From contig PGXB01000001.1 in assembly GCA_002838945.1 (NCBI GenBank), positions 62,001 through 126,000 of the forward strand: 64,000 nt of DNA, in the 5' to 3' direction. Numbering within the stretch: the first letter of the stretch is position 1; every line of letters starts with the position of its first letter. This document shows, one piece after another, positions 10,628 through 32,037 of this stretch. The notes below the pieces were generated by a model that searched no databases, was not told the origin of the DNA, and saw nothing but the letters and a program-made list of their open reading frames with translations. A program made the position numbers and the translations under genes. The stretch comes from a candidate division Zixibacteria bacterium HGW-Zixibacteria-1. GTDB taxonomy: Bacteria; Zixibacteria; MSB-5A5; GN15; PGXB01.

Positions 10628-12661
10628 ATGCCAAAAATACTCTTGGTTGACGATGAGAACAAGTTTCGCGAGTCTCTGGCCAAACGTCTTTCCTTGAGAG
10701 GATATGAAACGGTCGATGTCGATAACGGTGAAGATGCCATAAAACTGGTTCGTGCCGATTCGGATATTGACGTCGTTCTTCTTGATAGAAAAATGCCCGG
10801 TATGAACGGGGAGCAGGTTCTTAACGAGATCAAATCATTCCGACCGGAACTTCAGGTTATCATGCTGACGGCCTTTGGGTCACTGCAATCGGCAATGGAA
10901 ATCGGGAGGCTTGAAGCTTACTCATATATGGAAAAGCCGACTGATTTCGAAGAAATTGTCAAGACGATCGATGCCGCACGCGAAGATAAAGTGCATGTTA
11001 TGGCGAGGCACGAGGTCCCGCAGGTCGAAAAGGGCTCTCTCTGGAAATGGCTGATTGGGACACATAATACCCGCCCGGGGGTTATTTTACTGGGGATTCT
11101 TTTATTCACTATTTTGATATTTATGCCTTCGCCCCAGAGGCTGATGACCCTGCTATCGGCACCTAAGACCGGTCAGGTCACTGACTCCAACTTTGGTTTT
11201 GCCAACTACCGTCAGATGAAAGACGGCGAAACGATCGCCGAATATTACAGCACACATTACAAAGTCGGCAGGAACGTGACCAATGACCAGGGCAAGAAAA
11301 CAATGGAGGCTCTGACGCCTGAAGAAACATCTGTCAGGGCACGGATAATGCTGGGTGTCCTGCTGGTAGCGGCCCTGTTCTGGGCCACCGGCGCTATCCC
11401 GGTCGGTGTCACTGCTTTGTTGACCGGTGTCATGATGTATTTCTTCGGCATTCTAAAGCCGGATGATATTGCCCAGGCGTTTGCCAAAGATGCCGTAATC
11501 TTTATCTTCGGTGTCCTGGCGGTATCGGCGGTAATAAGCAAAACCGGCCTGGATCGCCGGATCGGGCTGTTGCTGTTGGGCCCATCGAAAAATATCGGGC
11601 GGCTTCTTTTCTTGTTTCTGCCGATGCTTGGAGTGGCCTGTTCATTCGTCTCCGAGCATGCCCTGATTGCCTTTATCATGCCGCTTTTCATGATGGTCTA
11701 CATCACGTCAATTCGCGCGGCGGGTGTCAAGAGGGACCGGGCGCTGGCGGTTATGTTCGTTCTTTCGATCTGTTTTGCAGCCAACTGCGGCGGCCCCGGC
11801 TCACCTGCGGCCGGCGGACGTAACGCCGTCATGCTCGGCATCCTGAGTGACTACGGCAACGCGCCGACATTCATCGAGTGGGTGAAATACGGTTTGCCTT
11901 TCGTGCCTGTAATGGGTCTGGTAATTGCAACCTATTTCTACTTTATGTTTCGTCGTAAGCTGAAGGTTAAGGAATTGAATGTCTCATCAATAGTTCGAAA
12001 TGCTTCGGAGAAAATCGGCCCGATGAACAGGGATGAATATATAACGGCGTTCGCGCTGATCGGCTTGATTCTCTTGTGGATTCTTGGCAGCGATAAATTC
12101 GGCATGGGCGGGCCGGTCATCCTGTGCATCGTTTTTCTGAACGTCTTCAGGATACTGCGCTGGCGGGATATCGCCAATATTCCGTGGGATGTGGTTTTTC
12201 TTTATGCCAGCGCCAGCGCCATCGGCAAGGGTCTGGCGGTAACCGGCGGAGCCTTGTATATGGCCGACAGTTTTATCAACATCCTGCCCGATTTCCTGAC
12301 CAGCGGCTCAGGACTGGCCATAGCGGTCAGCCTGTTCACCGGTATTACCACCAATTTCATGAGTGACGGCGCCACCGTCTCGGCGATCGGCCCGATCGCC
12401 ATACCCATGGCCACCATATCGGGTTCCAATCCCTGGATGATCGGTCTGGCGACCGCTTTTGCATCATCCTTTGCCCATATGTTAATCATCGGAACGCCCA
12501 ACAATGCCATCGCCTATGCCATGGCCAAGGACCCGATAACCGGAGAGCAGCTCGTGAAATTGAGTGACTTTTTTAAGCACGGTTTTGTTATATTGCTGTT
12601 GTCGTTCGCCGTGCTCTGGTTCTGGGTGATTCTCGGGTACTGGCAGTTTTTGGGATTTTAG
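10628..12661 (+). CDS. Response-regulator receiver domain fused to SLC13/DASS-type membrane transporter
   Basis: 677 residues in one uninterrupted frame. Residues 1-120 are a complete CheY-like receiver: acidic pair D8/D9, phospho-acceptor D53 in VVLLDRKMPG, MLTAFG, and the conserved lysine in YMEKP. After a linker and an initial membrane span (~145-165), the rest is a multi-span SLC13/DASS anion permease (LLVAALFWATGAIPVGVTAL, VIFIFGVLAVSAVISKTGLD). The substrate/Na+ SNT motifs are altered to SEH (CSFVSEHALIAF) and SDG (FMSDGATVSAIGPI), so the substrate may not be a usual dicarboxylate or sulfate. Transport apparently controlled directly by phosphorylation would fit the preceding kinase. No frameshift was seen at the junction. 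Confidence 0.87.
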   Translation: MPKILLVDDENKFRESLAKRLSLRGYETVDVDNGEDAIKLVRADSDIDVVLLDRKMPGMNGEQVLNEIKSFRPELQVIMLTAFGSLQSAMEIGRLEAYSYMEKPTDFEEIVKTIDAAREDKVHVMARHEVPQVEKGSLWKWLIGTHNTRPGVILLGILLFTILIFMPSPQRLMTLLSAPKTGQVTDSNFGFANYRQMKDGETIAEYYSTHYKVGRNVTNDQGKKTMEALTPEETSVRARIMLGVLLVAALFWATGAIPVGVTALLTGVMMYFFGILKPDDIAQAFAKDAVIFIFGVLAVSAVISKTGLDRRIGLLLLGPSKNIGRLLFLFLPMLGVACSFVSEHALIAFIMPLFMMVYITSIRAAGVKRDRALAVMFVLSICFAANCGGPGSPAAGGRNAVMLGILSDYGNAPTFIEWVKYGLPFVPVMGLVIATYFYFMFRRKLKVKELNVSSIVRNASEKIGPMNRDEYITAFALIGLILLWILGSDKFGMGGPVILCIVFLNVFRILRWRDIANIPWDVVFLYASASAIGKGLAVTGGALYMADSFINILPDFLTSGSGLAIAVSLFTGITTNFMSDGATVSAIGPIAIPMATISGSNPWMIGLATAFASSFAHMLIIGTPNNAIAYAMAKDPITGEQLVKLSDFFKHGFVILLLSFAVLWFWVILGYWQFLGF

Positions 12662-12679
12662 AAAACAAAGGATATTAAT

Positions 12680-13168
12680 ATGACGGATAATATCAAACTA
12701 CTCATTGTCGATGACGAGGTAAAATTTCTCGATTCCATTGCGCAAAGGCTGGAACTTCGCGGGTTCGGCGTCACCAAGGCCAAGAGCGGACTGGAGGCGA
12801 TCGAGGCCGCCAAGACCGGCAAGTTTGACCTGGCCCTGCTGGATCTAAAAATGCCCGGCATGGACGGCACGCAGGTGCTGGAAATTCTCAAAAAAGAGCA
12901 TAAATATCTCGAGGTGATTATCCTGACCGGTCACGGCTCGGTCGATTCGGCGGTAGAATGCACCAAGCTGGGCGCATTCAGCTATCTCCCTAAGCCGTAC
13001 GAACTGGATATGCTCCTTGAGAAGCTGAAAGAAGCATTCCAGGAAAGACTGCGCAAAAAATTCGAAACCGACCAGGCACGGATGGACAAAATTGCCAAAC
13101 TGGCGGCCGGATCCAGCCCGCTGGGAATTTTACGTGAATTGAGAAAACTCGACGACGAAGTGAAGTAA
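12680..13168 (+). CDS. Stand-alone response regulator (receiver plus helical tail)
   Basis: 162 residues. The receiver has D11/D12, phospho-acceptor D55 in LALLDLKMPG, the switch threonine in IILTGHGS and the lysine in YLPKPYE. A charged helical tail (~120-162) replaces any DNA-binding or enzymatic output. It starts 18 nt after the transporter gene and is clearly paralogous to that gene's receiver (VDDExKFxxSxAxRLxLRG in both). It may act as phosphate sink, adaptor or competitor for the same kinase. It ends 9 bp before the stop of the converging hypE. Confidence 0.88.
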   Translation: MTDNIKLLIVDDEVKFLDSIAQRLELRGFGVTKAKSGLEAIEAAKTGKFDLALLDLKMPGMDGTQVLEILKKEHKYLEVIILTGHGSVDSAVECTKLGAFSYLPKPYELDMLLEKLKEAFQERLRKKFETDQARMDKIAKLAAGSSPLGILRELRKLDDEVK

Positions 13169-13177
13169 GGCGGGTTT

Positions 13178-14233
13178 TCAGCAGATTCGCGGCAGTTGCT
13201 CGCCGCTGAGCATATCGATGATACGATCGGCGCCGATGATGCTTTTCATGGTTACGATACCGTCGTTCTTCCCGCTGACTTTTCCGATAATCGCCGCTTC
13301 CGGCCAGAGCGATTCCTCGTGCAAAATATCCATGACTTTATCGGCATCTTTGTCCGGGACAAAGATGACCATGCGTCCTTCATTGGCGACATAAATCGGA
13401 TCAAACCCGAGAATTTCGCAAGCGCCGCGCACCTGATCGCAGACCGGAATCTTGTTCTCCTCAACTTCTATACGGCAGCTTGAGGTCGAAGCGATCTCGA
13501 CCAGCGAAGCGGCCAGACCGCCTCTGGTCAGATCACGCAAACAGTGAATATTAATTCCGCGGTCAAGCAGTTTCAGCACGGTTGCGGCCAGTGGGGCGCA
13601 GTCGCTCTCGATGGTGGTCTCAAAGGCAAGCCCCTCGCGGCGGGCCATGATGGCCATGCCGTGCCGTCCGATATCGCCGTTGATAATGACGACATCACCG
13701 GGTCGGACCGACGATGGTGCAATAGTCAGCTCATGTTCAATAACGCCGACCCCGGCGGTATTTATAAACAGACCGTGCCCGCGGCCCTTATCGACAACCT
13801 TGGTATCACCGGTAACGATGCTGACAGCGGCCTGATCGGCGGCTTCTCTCATCGAAAGCGCTACTCTCCATAGCGAATCCATGGAAAATCCTTCTTCGAT
13901 AATAAATCCTGCGCTGAGGTACAGCGGCCGTGCCCCGCACATGGCCAGGTCATTGACAGTACCATCGATGGCCAGTTTGCCGATATCACCTCCGGGAAAG
14001 AACAACGGATCGACCACATATGAGTCGGTCGTAAAGGCGAGACGATTCCCTTTTATTTTCAAAACAGCGCCATCATGCGCGGTCTCAAGGTGGGGATTGG
14101 CAAAAGTGGCGGCAAAAATTTTATCGATCAATTGATGCATCAACCTGCCCCCGCCGCCGTGCGCCAGCAGGACATGCGGATAATCGGAGATCGGTATGGG
14201 GCAGTTTAGTCCGCTATATTTTTTATCATTCAT
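13178..14233 (-). CDS. hypE: Hydrogenase maturation factor HypE
   Basis: Dehydrates the thiocarbamoyl group on its C-terminal cysteine to the cyanide ligand of the [NiFe] active-site iron. The 351-residue length is typical. Visible are the N-terminal ATP-binding block [38 protein letters not shown] and the essential C-terminal tetrapeptide PRIC. Last gene of the hyd-hyp transcription unit, 6 nt after hypD. Confidence 0.96.
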
Positions 14234-20462: not shown

Positions 20463-21332
20463 TTACATTTCCCACATTGAGAAGACATCTCTCATACTGT
20501 CGAAACGATAGACCGGCCCATCCTTGCAGACGAAGGTGGATCCGAGCTGGCAGTGGCCGCACATGCCGATGCCGCATTTCATGTTACGCTCCATCGATAT
20601 GTATGTTTTATCCTCGGTCACGCCTCGTTTCAGCAGTTCAAGAACAGTATATCTCATCATAATTTCCGGACCGCATACCATAGCCACGCAATGCAGCGGA
20701 TCGAAGGGCGCCCTCCCGATCAGGGTGGTGACCACGCCCACATTACCGCGCCAGGTGCCGGTGGCCCGATCCACGGTGAGATAAGTTTCGAGATCGAAAC
20801 GGCTCCGCCACTTTTCCAGTTGTTTGCGATAAAGCATATCCTCGGGCGTCCGGGTGCCATAGAGAAGGACAATCTTACCGTACTTATTTCTGTTATGAAG
20901 AACGTAATATATCACCGGGCGAAGCGGCGCCAGGCCGATACCGCCGGCAACTATAACCACATCATGGCCTTCGGCCTCTTTGACCGGCCAGGCCGCGCCA
21001 TAGGGCCCCCTGACACCGATAGTATCGGCAACCTTGAGGTCCTTCATGGCTTTGGTAACCGTTCCGACGGCGCGGGTCGTATGCACCAGAGGCCCCTCCT
21101 TGGTGGGGTCACCGCTGATGGATATCGGCACTTCCCCAACACCATACATATAAAGCATGTTGAACTGGCCCGGGGCAAATTTTATTGTATCGCGTCCCGA
21201 TTTCGGGCCAAGCTCGAGGGAGAAAGTGTCGAATGTTTCCCGGACCACCCGATGAATGGTATATGGTTTCACCAGCATCGGTTCGGCCGCGGTTATGCCT
21301 GTTGTTTTATCTTTACTTTGCATTTTTGCCAT
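20463..21332 (-). CDS. hydG: Group 3b hydrogenase, gamma subunit (FAD/NAD(P)-binding diaphorase)
   Basis: Ferredoxin-NADP reductase-type subunit linking the hydrogenase to NAD(P)H. Seen are the flavin region [20 protein letters not shown], the nucleotide motif [24 protein letters not shown], and a C-terminal [2Fe-2S] motif [14 protein letters not shown]. Three starts (21338, 21332, 21323) are possible. The middle ATG has GGA at the best spacing and is used (289 aa). All overlap the end of the preceding cyclic-nucleotide-binding-domain gene. Confidence 0.93.
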
Positions 21333-21777
21333 ACACATCCATTAACTGAAATCTTGTCGCTTCCAGTCTTTCAGCGATGATAATATTGAATCTTTTCATT
21401 ATTTCATATCCGAGATCATGATCCAGCTCGCACTTGTCGCGGAGGCATTTTCCGTCAAGCACAATGGCGCGGGTCAGTTCCACGGCCCGGGCATCGAAGT
21501 GCCACTTGTACGGCGGAACCAGCCATGACCAACCCAGGATTTCGCCGGCTTCGCGCGAACGGATTATGATCGGACCCTTCTGGGGAACATGAGTTTCGAT
21601 CTGAACCCGGCCATGCCGGATAAAGTAAAAGGAGTTGGCATCTTTGCCCTCTTTGAAAATGTATTCGTTTTCCTTGAAAACGACATTCGACGCACATCCG
21701 ACAAGAGTCTGGATATGCTTCGGATTCATCCCCGCCAAGAAGGGGTGTTCCATTAAGATTCGCTCAAGATTTTCCAT
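21313..21777 (-). CDS. Cyclic-nucleotide-binding-domain protein of the hydrogenase operon (no DNA-binding domain)
   Basis: 154 residues forming a single CRP-type beta-roll: [20 protein letters not shown] near residues 37-56, then [20 protein letters not shown] and [14 protein letters not shown]. The segment matching the phosphate-binding cassette (EILGWSW...) lacks the usual arginine, so cAMP binding is doubtful. After the C-helix the protein simply ends; there is no helix-turn-helix, so it cannot be the regulator that binds the nearby palindromes. Position between the beta and gamma genes suggests an allosteric or structural subunit of the hydrogenase. Confidence 0.85.
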
Positions 21778-22966: not shown

Positions 22967-22995
22967 AATATAATGTGCGCCAATAATATTGTCAA
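22967..22995 (-). promoter_or_regulatory. Promoter of the group 3b hydrogenase operon
   Basis: Read on the minus strand: TTGACA (22995-22990), exactly 17 bp, TATATT (22972-22967). The start of transcription is expected near 22960, just before the operator. Confidence 0.75.
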
Positions 22996-23052
22996 CAGAA
23001 AAAGTTCTGATTAGATTGATTAAAGGCTCCTTTCATAACCATGTTTCTTCCT

Positions 23053-23709
23053 CTAAGCATCTCTCAATCCGGCGACTTTGACCGCCCCGCGGTGGTAGCC
23101 GTCGGGGAACAGCTTTTCCAGTTCCTCCAGGCCGATATTATTGCTCTCGCAGGTGGCGTAGATGGTCGGAATCTCGCCCGTTCTCGAAAAATAATCTCTC
23201 ATGAAAAGTATAATTTCCCAGTGTTTCTTTGTGAGATACTCGGGCATCTTCATTTCAAAGGCCTTGTGGAGGGCGAAGTTTTCATCCCAGTCGTTGAAAT
23301 CGACCAGGAAGCCATAGACATCTGTCTTATATATCTTTTTCTCATACATCCGGACATGATGCACGATATGTTCTTCGATCCAGTTTTTCTGGAAGTATCC
23401 CTCGCGGTAAGTGACCCCGGCCAGTTTGCAGGCTCCGCGAAGATAACCGGTCGGAAAGAGCTTTCTCAGGTCGCCGAGCCCGATATCATTTTTGCGGCAG
23501 GCGACATATACCAGGGGGCAGTTGTTCATTTTATCGAAGCTGTTGCGGATAAAGCGGATAACTTTCCAGTGAGCTTCGGTCAGACCGCCTTCGATCCGCA
23601 CCTGCGGCGCCATGCCCTCGGCAAAATTCTCATCCCATTCCTCGGGATTCAGCAGATAACCCAGGGCATCAACTTCATAGTCTTTTCCATTATGAGTAAA
23701 GTACCTCAT
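23053..23709 (-). CDS. Tandem-duplicated DsrC/TusE-like protein lacking the terminal cysteine
   Basis: 218 residues made of two DsrC-like domains (1-107 and 121-218) that align along their length: DALGYLLNPEEWDENFA with DVYGFLVDFNDWDENFA, HWKVIRFIRNSF with HWEIILFMRDYF, and LRKLFPTGYLRGACKLAG with LEKLFPDGYHRGAVKVAG. DsrC proteins carry sulfur on two C-terminal-arm cysteines. Here Cys94 keeps the inner position in domain 1, but the outer one is Tyr105; domain 2 has Val210 and ends before the outer site. Another cysteine is shared by both copies (C71, C187). Last gene of the Hdr-Mvh unit; perhaps a redox partner or regulator of HdrB. Confidence 0.85.
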   Translation of the reverse strand: MRYFTHNGKDYEVDALGYLLNPEEWDENFAEGMAPQVRIEGGLTEAHWKVIRFIRNSFDKMNNCPLVYVACRKNDIGLGDLRKLFPTGYLRGACKLAGVTYREGYFQKNWIEEHIVHHVRMYEKKIYKTDVYGFLVDFNDWDENFALHKAFEMKMPEYLTKKHWEIILFMRDYFSRTGEIPTIYATCESNNIGLEELEKLFPDGYHRGAVKVAGLRDA

Positions 23710-23726
23710 AATATTGCTCCAAAAGC

Positions 23727-24395
23727 TCAGGCTTTTTTCTTCTTTTGCGCGGCCTCAACGAGCCATTTGTACCAGACATCAAGCCCCTCGCCGGTTCGGC
23801 AGGAGACTTCAAATATTTTCAGAGCGGCGTTTATGGTTCGGGCATTTTTTTTGACCTTTTCCGGATCAAAATCGGAAAGTCCCAGCAGGTCGATTTTGTT
23901 GACTATCATGACCGAGGAACGGCGAAACATGGCCGGATATTTAAGCGGCTTGTCATCACCTTCAGTGGTGCTGATTAATACCACCTTCATATCTTCACCA
24001 AGATCATAGCTTGACGGACATACGAGGTTACCGACATTTTCGATAAAGAGAACATCGGTGCCGGCCAGATCAATCTTGTCCAGGACATTACCGATCATTT
24101 TGGCATCGAGATGACAGGCGCCGCCGGTGACAATCGGCCGGACAATGCGGCCGCCGGCCCTGGTCAGACGGTCGGCATCATTTTCCGTCTGGACATCGCC
24201 CGCAATCAGCGCCATGTTCAACTTCCGGCCCATCTCCTTCAGGGTTCTTTCAAGCAGGGAGGTTTTCCCGGATCCGGGTGAACTGACCAGATTGAGGGAG
24301 AGAATTTTCTTCCCGGCAAGATCGGCCCTGATCTCGGCGGCCAGCCGGTCATTTTCCGACAGAACCTTTTTTTCTACTTTTATCTTCTCATCCAT
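23727..24395 (-). CDS. hypB: Hydrogenase nickel-insertion GTPase HypB
   Basis: GTPase delivering nickel with HypA. P-loop SSPGSGKTSLL, switch region GDVQTENDADR, metal site GGACHLD, IENVGNLVCPS and base-recognition NKIDLL are present. No N-terminal histidine-rich nickel store is seen. The frame reaches 24425, but ATG 24395 has GGA at good spacing and removes an atypical tail; it is preferred (222 aa). Confidence 0.95.
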   Translation of the reverse strand: MDEKIKVEKKVLSENDRLAAEIRADLAGKKILSLNLVSSPGSGKTSLLERTLKEMGRKLNMALIAGDVQTENDADRLTRAGGRIVRPIVTGGACHLDAKMIGNVLDKIDLAGTDVLFIENVGNLVCPSSYDLGEDMKVVLISTTEGDDKPLKYPAMFRRSSVMIVNKIDLLGLSDFDPEKVKKNARTINAALKIFEVSCRTGEGLDVWYKWLVEAAQKKKKA

Positions 24396-24424
24396 ATCAT
24401 TTCCGTTTTTGTAATCGTGCCCCA

Positions 24425-24766
24425 TTATTTTTCGACAAGGTATGTAATATCAAGTTCTTCCCCCTGTACTAAATACATATCGGTCGAACCGCAAAAAGGA
24501 CATATAAAAACAAACTCATTTACTTCAAAATCTTTGAGGCAGGAGCGGCAGTTTCCCTTAACCGGAACCTGCTCGATTTTAAGCACGGCTCCGTCAAGAG
24601 GGGTATCGACAACGGCCGCCTCGAAACTGAAAGAGAGCGCACCGGCATCAAACCCGGACAGGGCTCCCAGACGAAGGCCGACTTCTTTGATTCCGGACAG
24701 TTTCAGCCGGTTCATCTCATTTTGCACAATCTCAATTATCTCAGTTGCCACACGCAGTTCATGCAT
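24425..24766 (-). CDS. hypA: Hydrogenase nickel-insertion protein HypA
   Basis: 113 residues. Begins MHELRVATEI with the nickel-binding N-terminal MH. The zinc site is CRSC with CPFC 24 residues later. Overlaps the upstream protease gene by 8 nt. Confidence 0.95.
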   Translation of the reverse strand: MHELRVATEIIEIVQNEMNRLKLSGIKEVGLRLGALSGFDAGALSFSFEAAVVDTPLDGAVLKIEQVPVKGNCRSCLKDFEVNEFVFICPFCGSTDMYLVQGEELDITYLVEK

Positions 24767-25232
24767 GAAAAGCCCTGTCTTGCCACCAGTTTATATAAGC
24801 CATGACGCACGGTATCAGCTTCTTCAACGATTTTGACACCGCCGCGCTCATTTCCTTACCCACAGTGTAAGGATCATCAACTTCAACCGCAAAGATTTTT
24901 ATTTCTTCCGGGAAGTCAAGCTGCATCTGTTCCGCCAATAATATTAATTCGGGCAATCCGGTATAATGGGGTGACGGACTCATAACCGTTCTTAAGTCGC
25001 CCAGTTCGAGTTCGATAACCGACCCGGGCGAAAAACCGGACATTTGAATGGCGTCGATTATTATAACCTGTCGGTATCCGACCAGAAGATCAAGGAGCGC
25101 CACCCCATGCATGCCGGTGGCGACCACATCGGCTTGGCCGTTGAGCATGGTCTGCAGTTTCTCGGCGGCCAGAATGCCGATGCCGTCGTCACCAAGCAAG
25201 TCGTTGCCCAAACATAAAATCAGCGGTTTCAT
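24759..25232 (-). CDS. Hydrogenase maturation protease for the MvhA large subunit
   Basis: 157 residues, HycI/HoxM-like. LILCLGNDLLGDDGIGILAA holds the first acidic metal ligand, VIIIDAIQMSGFSPG the second, and SPHYTGLPELI the histidine. It is placed 3 nt downstream of mvhA, its probable substrate. It is clearly different in sequence from the protease beside hydA, so each large subunit has its own. Confidence 0.92.
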   Translation of the reverse strand: MKPLILCLGNDLLGDDGIGILAAEKLQTMLNGQADVVATGMHGVALLDLLVGYRQVIIIDAIQMSGFSPGSVIELELGDLRTVMSPSPHYTGLPELILLAEQMQLDFPEEIKIFAVEVDDPYTVGKEMSAAVSKSLKKLIPCVMAYINWWQDRAFHA

Positions 25233-25235
25233 GGC

Positions 25236-26699
25236 TCACCTGCGGCGAATATCCCGGATCATATGGTGGTTGCTGTCAAAAACCCTGACCGCTAACGGCA
25301 TCTGCCCCGGCAAGGCATGTGTGGCGCAGCCGTGGCAGGGGTCATAGGCCCGGAAAGCCATCTCCACCATGTTCAAAATTCCGTCATCGACCTGACCGTT
25401 TTTAATCAGGCCTTTGGCCGCCTTATCGACCGACAGGGCGATCCTGGCGGAGTTATTCTGTGTCGCCACAATCAGGTTGGCCTTGGTAATCACCCCTTTT
25501 TCATCGGTCTGATAATGATGAATAAGGGTCCCGCGAGGAGCTTCGACAATTCCGACACCCTCGACCGGCTTTTCGGTAGGTATGTTATGCACTTTGGGAT
25601 TGACAATTTCCGGATCGCTCGCCAGCTCTCTCATCCGCTCGGCGCTGTAAAGCATTTCGATCAACCTGGCCCAGCTTGTGGCCAGTGTGAAATGCACCGG
25701 TTTGCCGCCGCAGGTTTGATAAAACTGTTCATAAGCTTCCTGGGCCAACGGCGTGGCCATGCCATCGGCGGCATTCAGGCGGGCCAGCGGCGCCACGGCA
25801 AAGATGCCGCTGTCGGGGCCGTCGGCAAAGCCGTTCCAGCCGATATCCTTAAGGTAGCTGAAACGCATATAGCTCCACGGCTCGACATGCTCCGCGATAT
25901 GATCCAGGTATTTGCCGTGCGGAAATTTGCACAGCTCTTTGCCGTCCGGATCGACCACCCGGATCGGCCCATCATAGAAATTCACCTTATTGTTCTGATC
26001 CACCATACCCATGTAATATGTCTTATGGGTATAGATATCCGAGGTAATGTGTTCCATGTACTCAGGATTGTTGAGAACAACATCATTGAAGATTTTCAGG
26101 CTGAATTGCGCAAATTCTACCGCAACCTCGGCAGCATCGATAATCTTCTGCTGGTCGCCCTTTGCAATCGGCTTGGAAATGCCGCCCGGCAGACCGAAGA
26201 CAGGATGAATGGTCTTACCCATTATCATGGTCATCAGGTCGCGCAACTGTTTGCGCGTGCCGATTACCTTCAGGCCGATTTCCTGCCCGACTTTGCCGAG
26301 AACGCCCAGAATATTCCGTTCCGCTTTGGGCGCTTTCGGCCCGACGACAAAATCGGGCCCGGCCAGAAAGAAGAAATGCAGGGCATGATCCTCGACATAA
26401 AAGATATTGTAAACCAGTTCCCTTATTTTTTTGGCGGCCGGCGGCGGCTCGACTTTGTACAGGTCATCGAGAGCCTTGGTCCCGGCCATATGATGAGCCG
26501 TCGGGCAGACGCCGCAAATACGCGAGGTGATTTGCGGCATATCCTCGGCCGGGCGCCCCTGAGCGAATCTTTCAAAACCGCGCAGCTCCGGCACCTGAAG
26601 GTAGGCTCTGTCAACACCGCCGCTGTCATTCAGGATGATATCGATTTTGCCGTGCCCCTCGAGCCGCGTGATGGGATCTATAACGATTCTTTCATTCAT
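25236..26699 (-). CDS. mvhA: [NiFe] hydrogenase large subunit, Hdr-linked MvhA type (group 3c)
   Basis: Oxidises H2 and feeds electrons through MvhG and MvhD to HdrA. 487 residues. L1 has C62/C65 in RICGVCPTAHH. L2 is DPCHGCATH with C455/C458 and H461, leaving an unusually long C-terminal peptide of 26 residues to be removed. The N-terminal DPITRLEGHGKI is typical. It starts 8 nt inside the end of mvhG. Confidence 0.94.
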   Translation of the reverse strand: MNERIVIDPITRLEGHGKIDIILNDSGGVDRAYLQVPELRGFERFAQGRPAEDMPQITSRICGVCPTAHHMAGTKALDDLYKVEPPPAAKKIRELVYNIFYVEDHALHFFFLAGPDFVVGPKAPKAERNILGVLGKVGQEIGLKVIGTRKQLRDLMTMIMGKTIHPVFGLPGGISKPIAKGDQQKIIDAAEVAVEFAQFSLKIFNDVVLNNPEYMEHITSDIYTHKTYYMGMVDQNNKVNFYDGPIRVVDPDGKELCKFPHGKYLDHIAEHVEPWSYMRFSYLKDIGWNGFADGPDSGIFAVAPLARLNAADGMATPLAQEAYEQFYQTCGGKPVHFTLATSWARLIEMLYSAERMRELASDPEIVNPKVHNIPTEKPVEGVGIVEAPRGTLIHHYQTDEKGVITKANLIVATQNNSARIALSVDKAAKGLIKNGQVDDGILNMVEMAFRAYDPCHGCATHALPGQMPLAVRVFDSNHHMIRDIRRR

Positions 26700-27684
26700 G
26701 GCTGTTTTCTCCTGGAACGGAAGGTTGATAGCGCCGATGCATCATTGAGGCCGGAAGGCTGTACCGGTGGAAGGTTCCGACCGGATCGACAATCTGACTC
26801 AGGATTTCGATGATCTCCCGGTCATCGTTCGAATCGGCCATGGATGCAAAAGCCGAAAGCGCTTTGGCGCCGAAATCGATTACGCGACTGGTCGGCCCCA
26901 TGCATCCGGTGCAGGGCATATTGCCTTTGGGGCAGGCCGACCCGCAACCCTGACGGGTTACCGGACCCAGGCAGAGCAGACCCTGGGCGAGAAGGCATTT
27001 TTCCTGATCGATTTCTATTTCGAAGGGCCGCTTGAAACTCTTCAGAGCCATTTTTTCCGGTTTGGTGTCGCGGCGTTCGCATTCCTCACAGAGGGAAATA
27101 TCCGGTGCGAGAACCGCTCCCGGAGCGGGCAGCTGCCCGCTGAGAATAGCCCCGACCGCTTCTTTTATCAGTTTGACCGGCGGCGGGCAGCCGGGCAGAT
27201 AGTACTCCACCTTGATAACCTGATCGAGCGACTTGACCGTGTCCCATAATAGGGGAAGGGTCAAGATTCCGTTGCCGGTGTCATAGGCCAGTTTCGGCAC
27301 CATTTTTTCATCATTGACGACTGAGGGTGCATTGAAATAGACTTCCTCGATCATCTCCTGTCGATTGAAGGTGTTGGCCAGACCGGGAATTCCGCCCAGA
27401 TGGGCGCAGCTTCCGAAGGCTATCACGATTTGTGATTTCCGGCGCAGTAACTCGACCATCTCATGCTGCTCCGAAGAACGGACGGCTCCGTTGATAAAGC
27501 TGACGACTATCTCACCGTCCGCCATCGCTTCAACATCACTCTTCTTGAAATCAAGTGCGACCGGCCAGAAAACAATATCGACCGCTCCGACGACCTGAAG
27601 AATATCTTCGGCCAGATCGACAACCGCTTCCTCACAGCCGCCGCATGAGGCACACCAGTAAAAGGCAACTTTGGGTTTACTCAT
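26692..27684 (-). CDS. mvhG: [NiFe] hydrogenase small subunit MvhG
   Basis: Iron-sulfur subunit of the Hdr-linked hydrogenase. The frame extends to 27852, but ATG 27684 gives MSKPKVAFYWCASCGGCEEA with the proximal-cluster cysteines and overlaps the mvhD stop as ATGA; 56 spurious residues are excluded (330 aa). Further cluster motifs are FGSCAHLGG, PGCPPP, CEECERRDT, CLGPVTRQGCGSACP and MPCTGCMGP. Confidence 0.93.
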   Translation of the reverse strand: MSKPKVAFYWCASCGGCEEAVVDLAEDILQVVGAVDIVFWPVALDFKKSDVEAMADGEIVVSFINGAVRSSEQHEMVELLRRKSQIVIAFGSCAHLGGIPGLANTFNRQEMIEEVYFNAPSVVNDEKMVPKLAYDTGNGILTLPLLWDTVKSLDQVIKVEYYLPGCPPPVKLIKEAVGAILSGQLPAPGAVLAPDISLCEECERRDTKPEKMALKSFKRPFEIEIDQEKCLLAQGLLCLGPVTRQGCGSACPKGNMPCTGCMGPTSRVIDFGAKALSAFASMADSNDDREIIEILSQIVDPVGTFHRYSLPASMMHRRYQPSVPGENSHE

Positions 27685-28187
27685 GGCGTCCCTCCTTGCA
27701 CGGCGGTTACATTTTTGGCCGATCCGGCGGTCGGCTCGTGAAGCGCCGCGACAGTCATCGGTTCCAGATGAAGCGGCCCCAGTCGGCGAACCTGCTCGGT
27801 CATCTGGTTGATGACCTTCTGGACCTTGTCGCCTTCGGAAGCGGCGATCCATTCCATTCGCAGTCGTTCCGGCTCGATACCCATGGCGGCCATGTATCTC
27901 TTAAGCAGCGTCATTCTTCGCAGCGCCTTGTAATTGCCCTCCTGATAATGGCAGTCACCGGGATGGCAGCCGCCGATCAGGACACCGTCGGCCCCTTCGC
28001 GGAAAGCTTTGACGATAAACTGGGCATCGATCCGTCCCGAGCACATGACGCGAATCACGCGGACATTGGCCGAGTACTGCATCCGGGCGGTGCCGGCCAG
28101 ATCGGCGGCAGTATAGGTACACCAGTTGCAGAAGAAGGCAACAATCCGCGGCTCGAATCCGTTGGTTTTATTTTCAGCATCAGACAT
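27681..28187 (-). CDS. mvhD: MvhD, [2Fe-2S] adaptor between hydrogenase and HdrA
   Basis: 168 residues from ATG 28187, which has AAGGAG nine bases upstream; the longer frame to 28274 lies inside hdrA. All five family cysteines appear: FFCNWCTYTAADLAG, VMCSGRID, and GGCHPGDCHY. It passes electrons from MvhG to the flavin of HdrA. In several methanogens this domain is fused to HdrA; here it is separate. Confidence 0.93.
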   Translation of the reverse strand: MSDAENKTNGFEPRIVAFFCNWCTYTAADLAGTARMQYSANVRVIRVMCSGRIDAQFIVKAFREGADGVLIGGCHPGDCHYQEGNYKALRRMTLLKRYMAAMGIEPERLRMEWIAASEGDKVQKVINQMTEQVRRLGPLHLEPMTVAALHEPTAGSAKNVTAVQGGTP

Positions 28188-30183
28188 AATTGATGACTCC
28201 TTCGATTTCATGGAAAATCTGTTCATCGGTGAAAAGATTCTGCTGCAGGGCGCCTGACGGACAGGCCGCCACACATGTCCCGCAGCCCTTGCACATGGCC
28301 CCGTTCACTTCGGCCGCATGCTTTTCCGCGATGAAATTGATGGCGCTGTACGGGCAGAGATTGATACAGGTATGGCACCCGGAGCAGTGTTCGGCCTGAA
28401 CATAAGCAGTGTTCGGTTCCAGTTGCACGAAGCCTTTATCAACCAGCGCCAGTGCCTCGGCCGCCGCCGCCCCGGCCTGGGCGACACTCTCGGGAATATC
28501 CTTTGGTCCCTGGCAGGCCCCGGCCAGAAAAACACCGTCGGTGAAGGTTGACACGGGAGCCAGTTTGGGATGCCGCTCCAGGAACCAGCCTTCACGACTG
28601 CAACTGATATTGAACATCCGGCGGACATCCTCATGATCAGTCTGCGGCTCAAGACCAACCGAGAGTATGACCATATCGACCGGGATGCGGCGGACCGACC
28701 CGATCAACGTATCCTCGGCCCGGATAACCAGATGCCCTTCTTCCTCGGGGGTCATGGCCCAGTCGGTGACTTCGGCCACCCGGCCGCGGATGAAGTGGAC
28801 ATCTTCCATCAAGAGTTTCTCGTAGAATTCCTCATAACCCTTGCCGGGCGTCCGCATATCAATATAGAAATTGTAAATTTCCGCTCCCGTACGCTCCTTG
28901 ACCAGATGTGCCAGTTTGAGAGAGTACATACAGCACACCTTGGAGCAGTACTTATTGGTTTTATTGTCGCGGCTTCCGACACAATGCACGACCCCGACCG
29001 CCTTGGGTTTCTTGCCATCCCTCATGACAATTTCCCCACCGGTCGGCCCGGCGGCATTGGTCAGCCGTTCCACTTCAAGACTGGAATAGACATTGGGGTA
29101 CTTGCCGTAACCGTAGCGTGAAATGCGCGAGGCGTCGAAAGCCCGGTAGCCGGTGGCCAGGATAATGGCGCCGACATCGATTTCCTTTATTTCGGCTGTC
29201 TGTTCTAAATCAATCGCATTCTTCTGGCAGACTTCGACACACGTTTTCTTGCACTTGCCGGTGCGGAAATGGGCGCAGTCTTCGGGATCAATCACCGCCA
29301 CCAGCGGCGTCGCTTGCGGGAAAGGTACATAGATCGGCTTGCGTTTGCTCAGGCCGACATTGAATTCATCGGGCGTTTTGCCTTTCTTGAAAATGCAGGC
29401 CTCGATGCAGTCGAGGCAGCCGACGCATTGATCCTCGATGACATAGCGCGGTTTGCGTTTTACTTTCACCTTGAAATTGCCCACATATCCTTGCACATTA
29501 TCGATCTCGGAATAGGTCCAGAGAGTGATATTGGGATGCGAACGCACCGCCGACATTTTCGGCGTCAGGATACAGGCGGAGCAGTCGAGAGTCGGGAAAG
29601 TCTTGTCGAACTGGGCCATGTGCCCGCCGATAGTCGGTTCGCGCTCGACCAGGAAGACCTTGCGGCCGGAATCGGCCATGGTGAGAGCGGCATGAATTCC
29701 GGCGATACCGCCTCCGACCACCAGGACATTGGGATTAACCGGCACCCGGCTCTGCTCCAGCGGACGGTGCCAGGCGACCCGCGCGACCGCCGCGGCAATC
29801 AGCGCCTTGGCTTTTTCGGTCGCAGCCGCTTTATCTTTGGTGACCCAGCTCACATGCTCGCGGATATTGGCCATCTGGAACAAGAACGCGTTGGCATTAG
29901 CCGCCACCATGGCCCGCCGGAAAGTCGGTTCATGCATCAGGGGCGAGCACGAGGCAACCACGACGCGGTCGATCTTACCGGAGCGGATATCTTCCTGTAT
30001 CAATTCCTGTCCCGGATCGGAGCACATGAATTTATATTCTTTGGCAATCGTCACATGGGGCAATTTGGCGGCAAATTCGACGGTGCTGTTGATATCGACC
30101 ATATGGGCGATATTGATACCGCAGTGACAGACATACACACCGATTTTCGGTGCGCCATTGGGATTTATATCAACTGTGGACAT
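28180..30183 (-). CDS. hdrA: HdrA, FAD/iron-sulfur electron-bifurcating subunit
   Basis: 667 residues from ATG 30183 behind a strong AGGAGGT. N-terminal cluster segment GVYVCHCGINI; Rossmann FAD fold VLVVGGGIAGIHAALTMADS; LDCSACILTPKM; an inserted ferredoxin motif CVGCLDCIEACIF; VHCVGSRD; and a C-terminal double ferredoxin (CSGCHTCINLCP and CKGCGTCVAACP). This is the family known to split electrons from H2 between a high-potential acceptor at HdrB and low-potential ferredoxin. The bacterial high-potential acceptor is not evident. Confidence 0.94.
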   Translation of the reverse strand: MSTVDINPNGAPKIGVYVCHCGINIAHMVDINSTVEFAAKLPHVTIAKEYKFMCSDPGQELIQEDIRSGKIDRVVVASCSPLMHEPTFRRAMVAANANAFLFQMANIREHVSWVTKDKAAATEKAKALIAAAVARVAWHRPLEQSRVPVNPNVLVVGGGIAGIHAALTMADSGRKVFLVEREPTIGGHMAQFDKTFPTLDCSACILTPKMSAVRSHPNITLWTYSEIDNVQGYVGNFKVKVKRKPRYVIEDQCVGCLDCIEACIFKKGKTPDEFNVGLSKRKPIYVPFPQATPLVAVIDPEDCAHFRTGKCKKTCVEVCQKNAIDLEQTAEIKEIDVGAIILATGYRAFDASRISRYGYGKYPNVYSSLEVERLTNAAGPTGGEIVMRDGKKPKAVGVVHCVGSRDNKTNKYCSKVCCMYSLKLAHLVKERTGAEIYNFYIDMRTPGKGYEEFYEKLLMEDVHFIRGRVAEVTDWAMTPEEEGHLVIRAEDTLIGSVRRIPVDMVILSVGLEPQTDHEDVRRMFNISCSREGWFLERHPKLAPVSTFTDGVFLAGACQGPKDIPESVAQAGAAAAEALALVDKGFVQLEPNTAYVQAEHCSGCHTCINLCPYSAINFIAEKHAAEVNGAMCKGCGTCVAACPSGALQQNLFTDEQIFHEIEGVINYV

Positions 30184-31078
30184 GCTGACCTCCTGCAACT
30201 TCTCGCAATTCATTTGACGGCTGAAGCCGGACAAAGAGACGGTTCATGCCCAGCTTGCGCTGTTCAAGACCGAAGGCAATGCCCATCAACTGGGTGAAAT
30301 AGACAACCGGAATTTCGCCGCCGCCGCCGAATCGTTTTGCTATTTGCGGCTGATAACATTCCAGATTGAACTGGCAGAGCGGGCAGGCAGTGATGATGAC
30401 GTCGCTGCCGCGCTTTTTTGCCTCATTCAGTAAGATGTAGCTCAATCTCAGACCGACATCCTGTATCGTTCCAGTCAATGAACCGCCGCAACATCTGGTC
30501 TTGAGGGGCCAGTCGATGGTTTCGCCGCCCAGAGCCTTGACGATGCGATTCATTGAGGTCGGGTCATGTTGATCGTCGAAATCGGCAAAGGGGCGAACCA
30601 ACTGACAGCCGTAATAGCAGGCGACTTTCAGACCGGCTAGCGGCCGGTTAACCTGTTCGGCGATTCTTTCGGTGCCGATGTCATTGACCAGGACATCAAG
30701 CGGATGCCTGATTTTGGTATGACCATGATATTCCAGCCCGCCGGCGGCCAGGGCGCGCTTGACAGTGTCGTTCAACGTCTTATATTCATTCAGATAGCGC
30801 CTGGCCTTGTTCAGACCGAGATAACAGGCGGCGCAGGGAACAACCATCTCGGCGCTGCCGTTATCGCCGTTCTGCTGTTCGGCCAGGGCGAAATTGCGGG
30901 CACTGAGCGCAAAGGCTTTGAGCTCGCTGACCGACATATAAGCGGTGGCGCCGCAACAATTCCAGTCATCGATTTCCTTCATCGGGATTTTCAGAGCCTC
31001 GAACACGGCCAGCATCGATTCCTCGTATGCCCGGCCGGTACCCTTTAAGGAGCATCCAGGGAAATACATGTAACTCAT
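30170..31078 (-). CDS. hdrB: HdrB, CCG-domain catalytic subunit
   Basis: 302 residues with both CCG cysteine sets complete: C9, C41-C42, C82, C85 and C154, C196-C197, C232, C235. These bind the two non-cubane [4Fe-4S] clusters that reduce disulfides in methanogen heterodisulfide reductase. A bacterium lacks CoM-S-S-CoB, so another disulfide or protein thiol is likely; the co-transcribed DsrC-like protein is a candidate. The start overlaps the hdrC stop as ATGA. Confidence 0.94.
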   Translation of the reverse strand: MSYMYFPGCSLKGTGRAYEESMLAVFEALKIPMKEIDDWNCCGATAYMSVSELKAFALSARNFALAEQQNGDNGSAEMVVPCAACYLGLNKARRYLNEYKTLNDTVKRALAAGGLEYHGHTKIRHPLDVLVNDIGTERIAEQVNRPLAGLKVACYYGCQLVRPFADFDDQHDPTSMNRIVKALGGETIDWPLKTRCCGGSLTGTIQDVGLRLSYILLNEAKKRGSDVIITACPLCQFNLECYQPQIAKRFGGGGEIPVVYFTQLMGIAFGLEQRKLGMNRLFVRLQPSNELREVAGGQHVHS

Positions 31079-31707
31079 AGATTTACCTCCCCAATTGCTT
31101 CCAATTCCTCTTTGCTCTTGACCATATGCTCTTTTTCGAGCATTTTAAGGATGCTTTTCAATTCATCCTTGCGTTTGATCGATTCTTTTTTGAGGCTGAA
31201 GCGGCCGCGTATCAACAACTTCCAGCCCAAACCGGCCTGCTTGAACATCTGAAAGGGATTGGTTTTCAAAAAGAGCCGAAGCAACAGGCGGCCCTCGCTG
31301 CTGCGGCCGTCCCTTTCGACACATTTGAAAAACTCACCGGCCAGAACCGAGATTGGGAAACGTTTGGGATAGACTTTTCCGCGGATGGCCAGCCGCTTGA
31401 CGGCATACATAATATCGGTAAGTTTGATCTCTTTGGGGCATTCGACGGTGCAGGAATAGCATGAAGCACACAGCCAGGTGGTGTAACTGCTGAGCACTTC
31501 ACCTTTGCATCCGGCCCGAATCATGGCGATAATTTGTCGCGGGGTGAAATCCATGTACGGGCTCATCGGGCACATGCCGCTGCACGTCCCGCACTGGATA
31601 CAACTGAAAAGCTTATCCCCGCCGGGAATTGACGCAATTTCGCGGGAGAAACTCGAATCCAGTTCCGCCTCATAACGAATTTTGCGCCACCCTTGCCATT
31701 TTTCCAT
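31075..31707 (-). CDS. hdrC: HdrC, [4Fe-4S] ferredoxin-like subunit
   Basis: 210 residues from ATG 31707 behind AGGAGG. The two cluster motifs are CIQCGTCSGMCP and CASCYSCTVECP. It connects HdrA and HdrB. The frame extends to 31827, but those 40 residues lack a ribosome site. First gene of a ten-gene unit running down to the tandem DsrC gene. Confidence 0.93.
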   Translation of the reverse strand: MEKWQGWRKIRYEAELDSSFSREIASIPGGDKLFSCIQCGTCSGMCPMSPYMDFTPRQIIAMIRAGCKGEVLSSYTTWLCASCYSCTVECPKEIKLTDIMYAVKRLAIRGKVYPKRFPISVLAGEFFKCVERDGRSSEGRLLLRLFLKTNPFQMFKQAGLGWKLLIRGRFSLKKESIKRKDELKSILKMLEKEHMVKSKEELEAIGEVNL

Positions 31708-32037
31708 GACATCCTCCTTGGGGCAATGGTTAATCGGAGGCATCAATTCCTGAACAAACCATCCACTCGGGGACGGCCTGTCAAATGAGGTGGCGCAGCA
31801 AAAGCCGGATTCGGTCAACCCGGACACCGGTTATGAGAACCGGCGCCGGCCCGAGCCGGACGGATCGTCGCTATCCTGTCCTGTACAATTCAGCCGCATA
31901 GATCCGATTCGCCGAATCGGTGTCGCCCAGGGCATAACATGGACACGGCGAATTGTTCGGATACGCGGGCGCTGAGAAGATGGCATATAACCGTATGTTC
32001 TATAAGTATATCCGACCATTGCAAACCGTCGATAGAA
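31708..32037 (-). other. Long, hairpin-rich leader of the Hdr-Mvh operon
   Basis: About 330 nt separate the operator from hdrC. Two perfect stems are seen: CCGATTC-GCC-GAATCGG (31904-31920) and CCGGTT-ATGAG-AACCGG (31827-31843), in a GC-rich stretch unlike the AT-rich sequence upstream. No T tract follows, so they are not simple terminators. A minus-strand frame at 31831-32241 has no family features. Confidence 0.4.

Follow-up and report, generated by a model that had tools for sequence, protein, structure and literature searches.

A two-domain DsrC-like protein without the outer cysteine, encoded with HdrABC-MvhADG in a Zixibacteria bacterium, as a candidate partner of CCG-domain reductases

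The locus described here raises the question of what an HdrABC complex reduces in a bacterium. The window, that is the whole stretch of 64,000 nucleotides that was analyzed, encodes an HdrABC-MvhADG set with the subunit composition of the methanogen complex, in which the acceptor is the CoM-S-S-CoB heterodisulfide. To our knowledge this heterodisulfide is not expected in this Zixibacteria bacterium, and we know of very few organisms for which the substrates of bacterial HdrABC complexes have been established. The genes are ordered hdrC, hdrB, hdrA, mvhD, mvhG, mvhA, a protease gene, hypA, hypB and a gene for a DsrC-like protein with two DsrC domains, hereafter the tandem DsrC (Table 1). All gaps from hdrC to the tandem gene are 17 nt or less, and most are overlaps. 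Beyond it lies hydB, which belongs to a second hydrogenase of sulfhydrogenase-like type and begins 121 nt past the tandem gene; this gap contains a promoter-like sequence that agrees with the consensus at 11 of 12 positions. Based on the tight packing and on the gap with its promoter-like sequence, we agree with the first-pass annotation of this DNA that the tandem gene ends the operon. The true start of mvhG is probably internal to the frame given in Table 1. In the second hydrogenase operon, a 154-aa protein (21313-21777) that reads as a stand-alone cyclic-nucleotide-binding domain overlaps hydG, and its relatives adjoin hydB/hydG at three other loci (L014, L022, and L039).

Table 1. Features of the hdr-mvh unit and of the tandem DsrC in the window
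Feature	Position	Strand	Basis
Tandem DsrC-like protein, 218 aa	23053..23709	-	PF04358 and TIGR03342 matches, AlphaFold model, fold search
DsrC domain 1, residues 1-101	23407..23709	-	Pfam stretch 6-100; DsrC fold
Linker, residues 102-123, replaces canonical CysA arm	23341..23406	-	pLDDT <50
DsrC domain 2, residues 124-218	23056..23340	-	Second PF04358 stretch; own clade in domain tree
C64, 85/97, missing in subfamily B	23518..23520	-	Family alignment, codon check
C71, 87/97 tandem proteins; also 15/18 normal DsrCs	23497..23499	-	Alignment, codon check
C94, inner cysteine (CysB position), domain 1, 97/97	23428..23430	-	Family alignment, codon check
Y105 at outer-cysteine (CysA) position	23395..23397	-	Family alignment, codon check
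C187, domain 2 counterpart of C71, 95/97	23149..23151	-	Family alignment, codon check
hdrC, two 4Fe-4S	31075..31827	-	Profile search
hdrB, both CCG motifs intact	30170..31078	-	PF02754, two stretches; motif check
hdrA	28180..30234	-	HdrA2 model 842 bits, under curated cut-off 1100
mvhD	27681..28274	-	FlpD PF02662
mvhG, NiFe small subunit	26692..27852	-	VhuG model from residue 59
mvhA, NiFe large subunit, both NiFe cysteine motifs	25236..26699	-	Profile search, motif check
Hydrogenase maturation protease	24759..25232	-	Sequence reading only
hypA and hypB	23727..24766	-	Sequence reading; hypB ends 17 nt before tandem gene
Promoter-like TTGACA-17-TATATT before hydB..hypE unit	22967..22995	-	Consensus match only

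Two DsrC domains in one chain, as noticed at first pass, were confirmed by two models that each match the protein in two stretches: Pfam DsrC (PF04358; E 1.5e-40, 138 bits against a cut-off of 24.9) and TIGR03342 (114.8 bits; cut-off 53.5). The TusE equivalog model scored 73.4 bits, below its cut-off of 191. In the AlphaFold model (mean pLDDT 84) both domains are well predicted, and the pTM of 0.50 means that their mutual position, and with it any C94-C187 contact, is not predicted by this model. One of the domains superposes on the solved DsrC chains 3or2_C and 3or1_C (TM to target 0.90), and all significant matches of the fold search were solved DsrC-family chains. The organism belongs to the Zixibacteria, and the closest public relative of the protein has 82% identity to it. 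Compared with an 82% orthologue, dN (about 0.12) lies well below a near-saturated dS in both domains, which supports the reading of the frame as a real coding gene with purifying selection acting on both. A search of plasmids with the tandem protein returned TusE-like matches only, none covering 80% of the query. We explain as a side effect of codon usage a long antisense reading frame opposite the tandem gene (23041-24009, plus strand), which recurs in 13 loci by crude ORF clustering.

The cysteines of the protein are where it departs from canonical DsrC. Domain 1 ends in LFPTGYLRGACKLAGVTYREGY, in which C94 occupies the inner-cysteine position and Y105 stands in place of the outer cysteine of normal DsrC; domain 2 ends in LFPDGYHRGAVKVAGLRDA, with neither cysteine. 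This is the arrangement that the first-pass annotation had described, and C64, C71, C94, Y105, C187, and V210 were all confirmed codon by codon. Since the penultimate outer cysteine (CysA) is missing, the CysA-CysB trisulfide that canonical DsrC forms with DsrAB should be impossible for the tandem protein, as had also been proposed. The pattern holds across our family sample, which comprises 97 tandem proteins and spans about ten phyla: just one of them has Cys exactly 11 residues after C94, and tandem homologues do not have the intact cysteine pairs that would have marked the present copy as a degenerate one. Ten of the 97 have an inner cysteine in domain 2 as well as in domain 1, and we refer to these as subfamily B. 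The published rule for the DsrC family is strict conservation of the outer cysteine, whereas the inner one is optional (PMC3397948). Tandem DsrCs break this rule of an invariant outer cysteine and, judged by their aligned sequences, turn it around, with the inner cysteine kept and the outer one lost.

In two respects our analysis altered the earlier interpretation. C94 had been treated as a remnant, yet it is the most conserved cysteine of the family and was lost in none of the 97 proteins. The C71/C187 pair had been put forward as a new cysteine shared by the two domains, but the position is an old one in DsrC: the source genome's own normal DsrC has Cys there, as do 15 of 18 normal two-cysteine DsrCs from tandem-bearing genomes, the others having S or T, and the idea of a new cysteine was therefore discarded. 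Conservation of the two residues is unequal, with C71 gone in 10 of the 97 and the only exceptions to C187 being one A and one gap. What remains of the first interpretation is thus the absence of a canonical trisulfide and the linkage to CCG reductases described below.

The tandem DsrC belongs to a widespread and apparently undescribed family. A scan of GTDB species genomes, incomplete because it used only two peptide patterns, gave 72 loci, all labeled as MAGs, in Zixiibacteriota, Desulfobacterota, Acidobacteria, Ignavibacteriae, Bacteroidetes, Calditrichaeota, Electryonea, Chloroflexi, LCP-89, Gemmatimonadota, Planctomycetota, and Myxococcota. Within the phylum of the host, 34 of 132 genomes encode a tandem protein. 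In a tree of 161 domains, all tandem domains separate from the single DsrCs (100/99) and domain 2 forms one clade (99/95), indicating one duplication that preceded the spread over phyla; with 101 columns and an unsettled bootstrap, the finer branching of this tree is unreliable. A search of the accessible literature found no tandem, duplicated or fused DsrC, and the passages that a keyword search retrieved from two large comparative Dsr-pathway studies did not mention tandem DsrC.

The source genome itself has five intact tandem DsrCs (on contigs 1, 42, and 46, and two on contig 13), together with one normal DsrC that has both cysteines and lies inside a dsr operon of the order A, B, D, N, L, C, T, M, K, J, O, P, with dsrA on contig 6 (names other than DsrA and DsrC are from sequence reading and the Pfam matches of relatives). 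There is also a short family fragment on contig 10 and a single-domain hybrid on contig 66 (L012:12343-12651), in which the first half of domain 1 is joined to the second half of domain 2; C64 and C71 are present in the hybrid, and the inner and outer cysteines are absent. Drift of a degenerate DsrC paralogue without function, to which the hybrid and the fragment might point, is extremely improbable and was rejected based on purifying selection on both domains, near-invariant cysteines over about ten phyla and a single ancient origin.

The gene neighborhoods of the family were compared using 65 loci, the set after removal of near-copies. Genes for Hdr, DsrM/K, NiFe-hydrogenase or Hyp proteins lie within 5 kb at 23 of these loci vs. 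1 of 40 control windows (p = 3e-5), and a CCG reductase or HdrA at 14 of 65 vs. 1 of 40 (p = 0.005), the loci being from many phyla and the controls mostly from complete Zixibacteria genomes plus one Gemmatimonadota genome. The linkage to hdr genes noticed at this locus recurs across phyla as a CCG-reductase linkage, and for hdr and dsrK it is conserved in a subset of the family. Among Zixibacteria, DsrA is encoded in 29 of 34 genomes with a tandem DsrC vs. 26 of 98 genomes without one (p = 1.9e-9), p-values here overstating independence because the genomes are related to each other. Both mvh and hdrA genes accompany the tandem gene at loci of Zixibacteria, Ignavibacteriae and Bacteroidetes (L019, L056, and L060), and mvh genes are also found at L020. 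In Desulfobacterales (L029) the tandem gene heads an hmc-type operon whose hmc-type genes are followed by HmcF (923 bits; cut-off 750), an arrangement that L043 resembles as far as its sequence reaches. In two Chloroflexota loci (L052 and L058) the order is tandem-dsrT-dsrMKJOP, so that the tandem gene stands in the place that canonical dsrC has in the dsr operon of the source genome. Finally, at three subfamily B loci (L075, L080, and L083) the tandem gene adjoins genes for DsrM, DsrK and a single DsrC that has the outer cysteine only, and L079 and L082 are variations on this arrangement. The single DsrCs of these five loci share the motif LFPCG..GAYRLAGLPRPxGC, and each may form a split DsrC pair with the tandem DsrC beside it, which is of the inner-type-only kind.

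As the CCG type of enzyme is common to these recurrent neighborhoods, we read the tandem DsrC as a dedicated redox and/or persulfide carrier that would accept electrons from a partner CCG-domain reductase, a reading to which we give about an even chance. The CCG domain, common to HdrB, DsrK and HmcF-type proteins, is considered to act on DsrC (PMC6470260, PMC10553843), and the CCG proteins HdrB, HdrD and DsrK are listed as DsrC partners (PMC6470260). For the HdrABC of Desulfovibrio vulgaris, three papers give a DsrC protein as the partner (PMC10504309, PMC10553843, PMC5296606), and two of these cite a direct interaction of normal DsrC with FlxABCD-HdrABC (PMC10504309, PMC10553843). In that system as in the present one, HdrABC is soluble and its HdrB requires a substrate of the disulfide type; unlike in D. 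vulgaris, the donor here would be H2, through MvhADG, and the gene for the DsrC-type protein, which has no outer cysteine, is part of the hdr-mvh unit.

In the unit described here, the tandem DsrC is probably the electron acceptor of an H2-driven HdrABC-MvhADG, a view drawn from gene content and order. MvhADG would oxidize H2, HdrA would bifurcate the electrons with ferredoxin also being reduced, and HdrB would reduce the oxidized tandem DsrC (a disulfide or persulfide). We infer this reduction, together with the pairing of cysteines and the upstream source of sulfur or electrons. C94 of domain 1 is most likely the key thiol and would be the reactive one. C187 of domain 2 is next in conservation, and it was for this reason proposed as the resolving partner; it would be the best candidate, although the pairing is a guess and the C71/C187 position may be merely that of a small packing residue, as some normal DsrCs have S or T there. 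The two domains would in this way stand in for the two cysteines on the single flexible arm of normal DsrC. A role as substrate of sulfite reductase is not expected for the tandem protein, because the outer cysteine is required there, and would be left to the separate normal DsrC of the source genome. Against the carrier reading, about two thirds of the loci have no Hdr, DsrK, NiFe or Hyp neighbor within 5 kb, and these loci include some of the nearest orthologues (L015, L016, L017, and L025).

The main rival is a persulfide relay, in which a cysteine desulfurase or a rhodanese would load C94 with sulfane sulfur and C94 would pass it on, like the cysteine of TusE, to DsrAB/DsrC, tRNA thiolation or selenium metabolism; on this view, Hdr/DsrK would be linked to the tandem protein through the step that frees sulfide from the persulfide. 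A 622-aa fusion of a cysteine desulfurase with a tandem DsrC (L054:742-2607), adjoining molybdopterin/NrfD, dsrAB, dsrL and dsrC genes, is consistent with this explanation, as are NifS-SelD fusion genes beside tandem dsrC in the source genome (L009) and at L045, rhodanese genes upstream of the tandem gene in Desulfobulbus loci, and an APS kinase gene preceding it in two Electryoneota loci. We nevertheless consider a relay unlikely, based on the fact that NifS-SelD-type matches occur at 3 of 65 loci and rhodanese-type matches at 4 of 65, neither being significant vs. controls, and that the window's own unit has no desulfurase, rhodanese or similar gene. Moreover, normal DsrC binds sulfur at the outer cysteine, which tandem DsrC is missing: Cys111 is its sole sulfur-binding site and Cys100 is dispensable (PMC3397948). 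TusE, the tRNA 2-thiouridine relay protein of the same superfamily, keeps the outer cysteine and usually has no inner one, the reverse of the tandem protein. A point of resemblance is that certain tandem genes lie next to a cysteine desulfurase gene or are joined to one. Some paralogues may act in a relay and others as partners of CCG reductases. On contig 13 of the source genome (L009:7854-12245), the NifS-SelD fusion gene and a sir2 gene are flanked by two tandem dsrC genes, and the recurrence of the NifS-SelD neighbor at L045 hints at a selenium or sulfur relay role.

A sensor or regulator of redox or sulfur state, reporting the state of Hdr/DsrK to transcription or signaling proteins, is rather improbable. 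This explanation rests on the helix-turn-helix-like part of the DsrC fold, and what speaks for it are weak LexA-like structural matches, the presence of histidine kinase or response regulator genes in the vicinity of several loci, and a DsrK-receiver domain fusion (at L079); many tandem paralogues, however, lie in metabolic operons, and kinase/regulator genes near tandem dsrC were not significantly enriched (12/65 vs. 4/40, p = 0.19), for which reason a link to two-component signaling was dropped. The L079 protein (11886-13706) is a DsrK-like CCG protein carrying a response-regulator receiver domain, and it lies near a macro-domain gene. More improbable still is a role without redox chemistry, in which the protein would dock on CCG reductases as a scaffold or pseudo-substrate and so compete with normal DsrC. 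In favor of such a role, domain 2 of most members has neither functional cysteine, and some tandem genes take the canonical dsrC place before dsrTMKJOP; the near-complete retention of C94 and C187 is not expected of a pure scaffold.

Returning to the tandem DsrC as a carrier for CCG reductases, the protein has the fold, the PF04358 and TIGR03342 matches and the inner cysteine of the DsrC (DsvC) of sulfate reducers and sulfur oxidizers, and like it occurs in DsrAB-containing genomes beside DsrK/HdrB-type reductases; unlike DsrC (DsvC), it has two domains per chain, with the arm replaced by a linker to domain 2. A co-encoded, multi-copy DsrC variant that is deeply conserved in about ten phyla is a concrete candidate HdrABC substrate. 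As such it may fill the place of the missing partner in a bacterial Hdr complex driven by hydrogen, and the energy metabolism of uncultured sulfur bacteria would then include a new thiol carrier. We propose, as a doubtful but possible extension, a second bacterial "heterodisulfide" design, in which the redox pair is split across two domains (C94-C187) or two proteins and the tandem DsrC serves as the HdrABC-MvhADG substrate in uncultured bacteria. The two-protein form is suggested by subfamily B, which co-encodes an inner-type-only tandem DsrC, an outer-only DsrC, DsrM and DsrK.

Three other loci have unusual DsrC arrangements. In genome G077 (L186) the dsr operon stops after 64 residues of dsrL and a normal DsrC was not found; the break inside dsrL is probably an assembly fault, and the idea that this organism lives with tandem DsrC alone was dropped. 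At L133 (1-1413) an HmcF/TmcB-like CCG reductase is fused to a cysteine-less DsrC-like domain and followed by a single DsrC gene, and this arrangement of matches recurs in a second Chloroflexi genome (G061). The protein at L035 (9914-11002) has three DsrC domains, apparently through the merger of two adjacent tandem genes.
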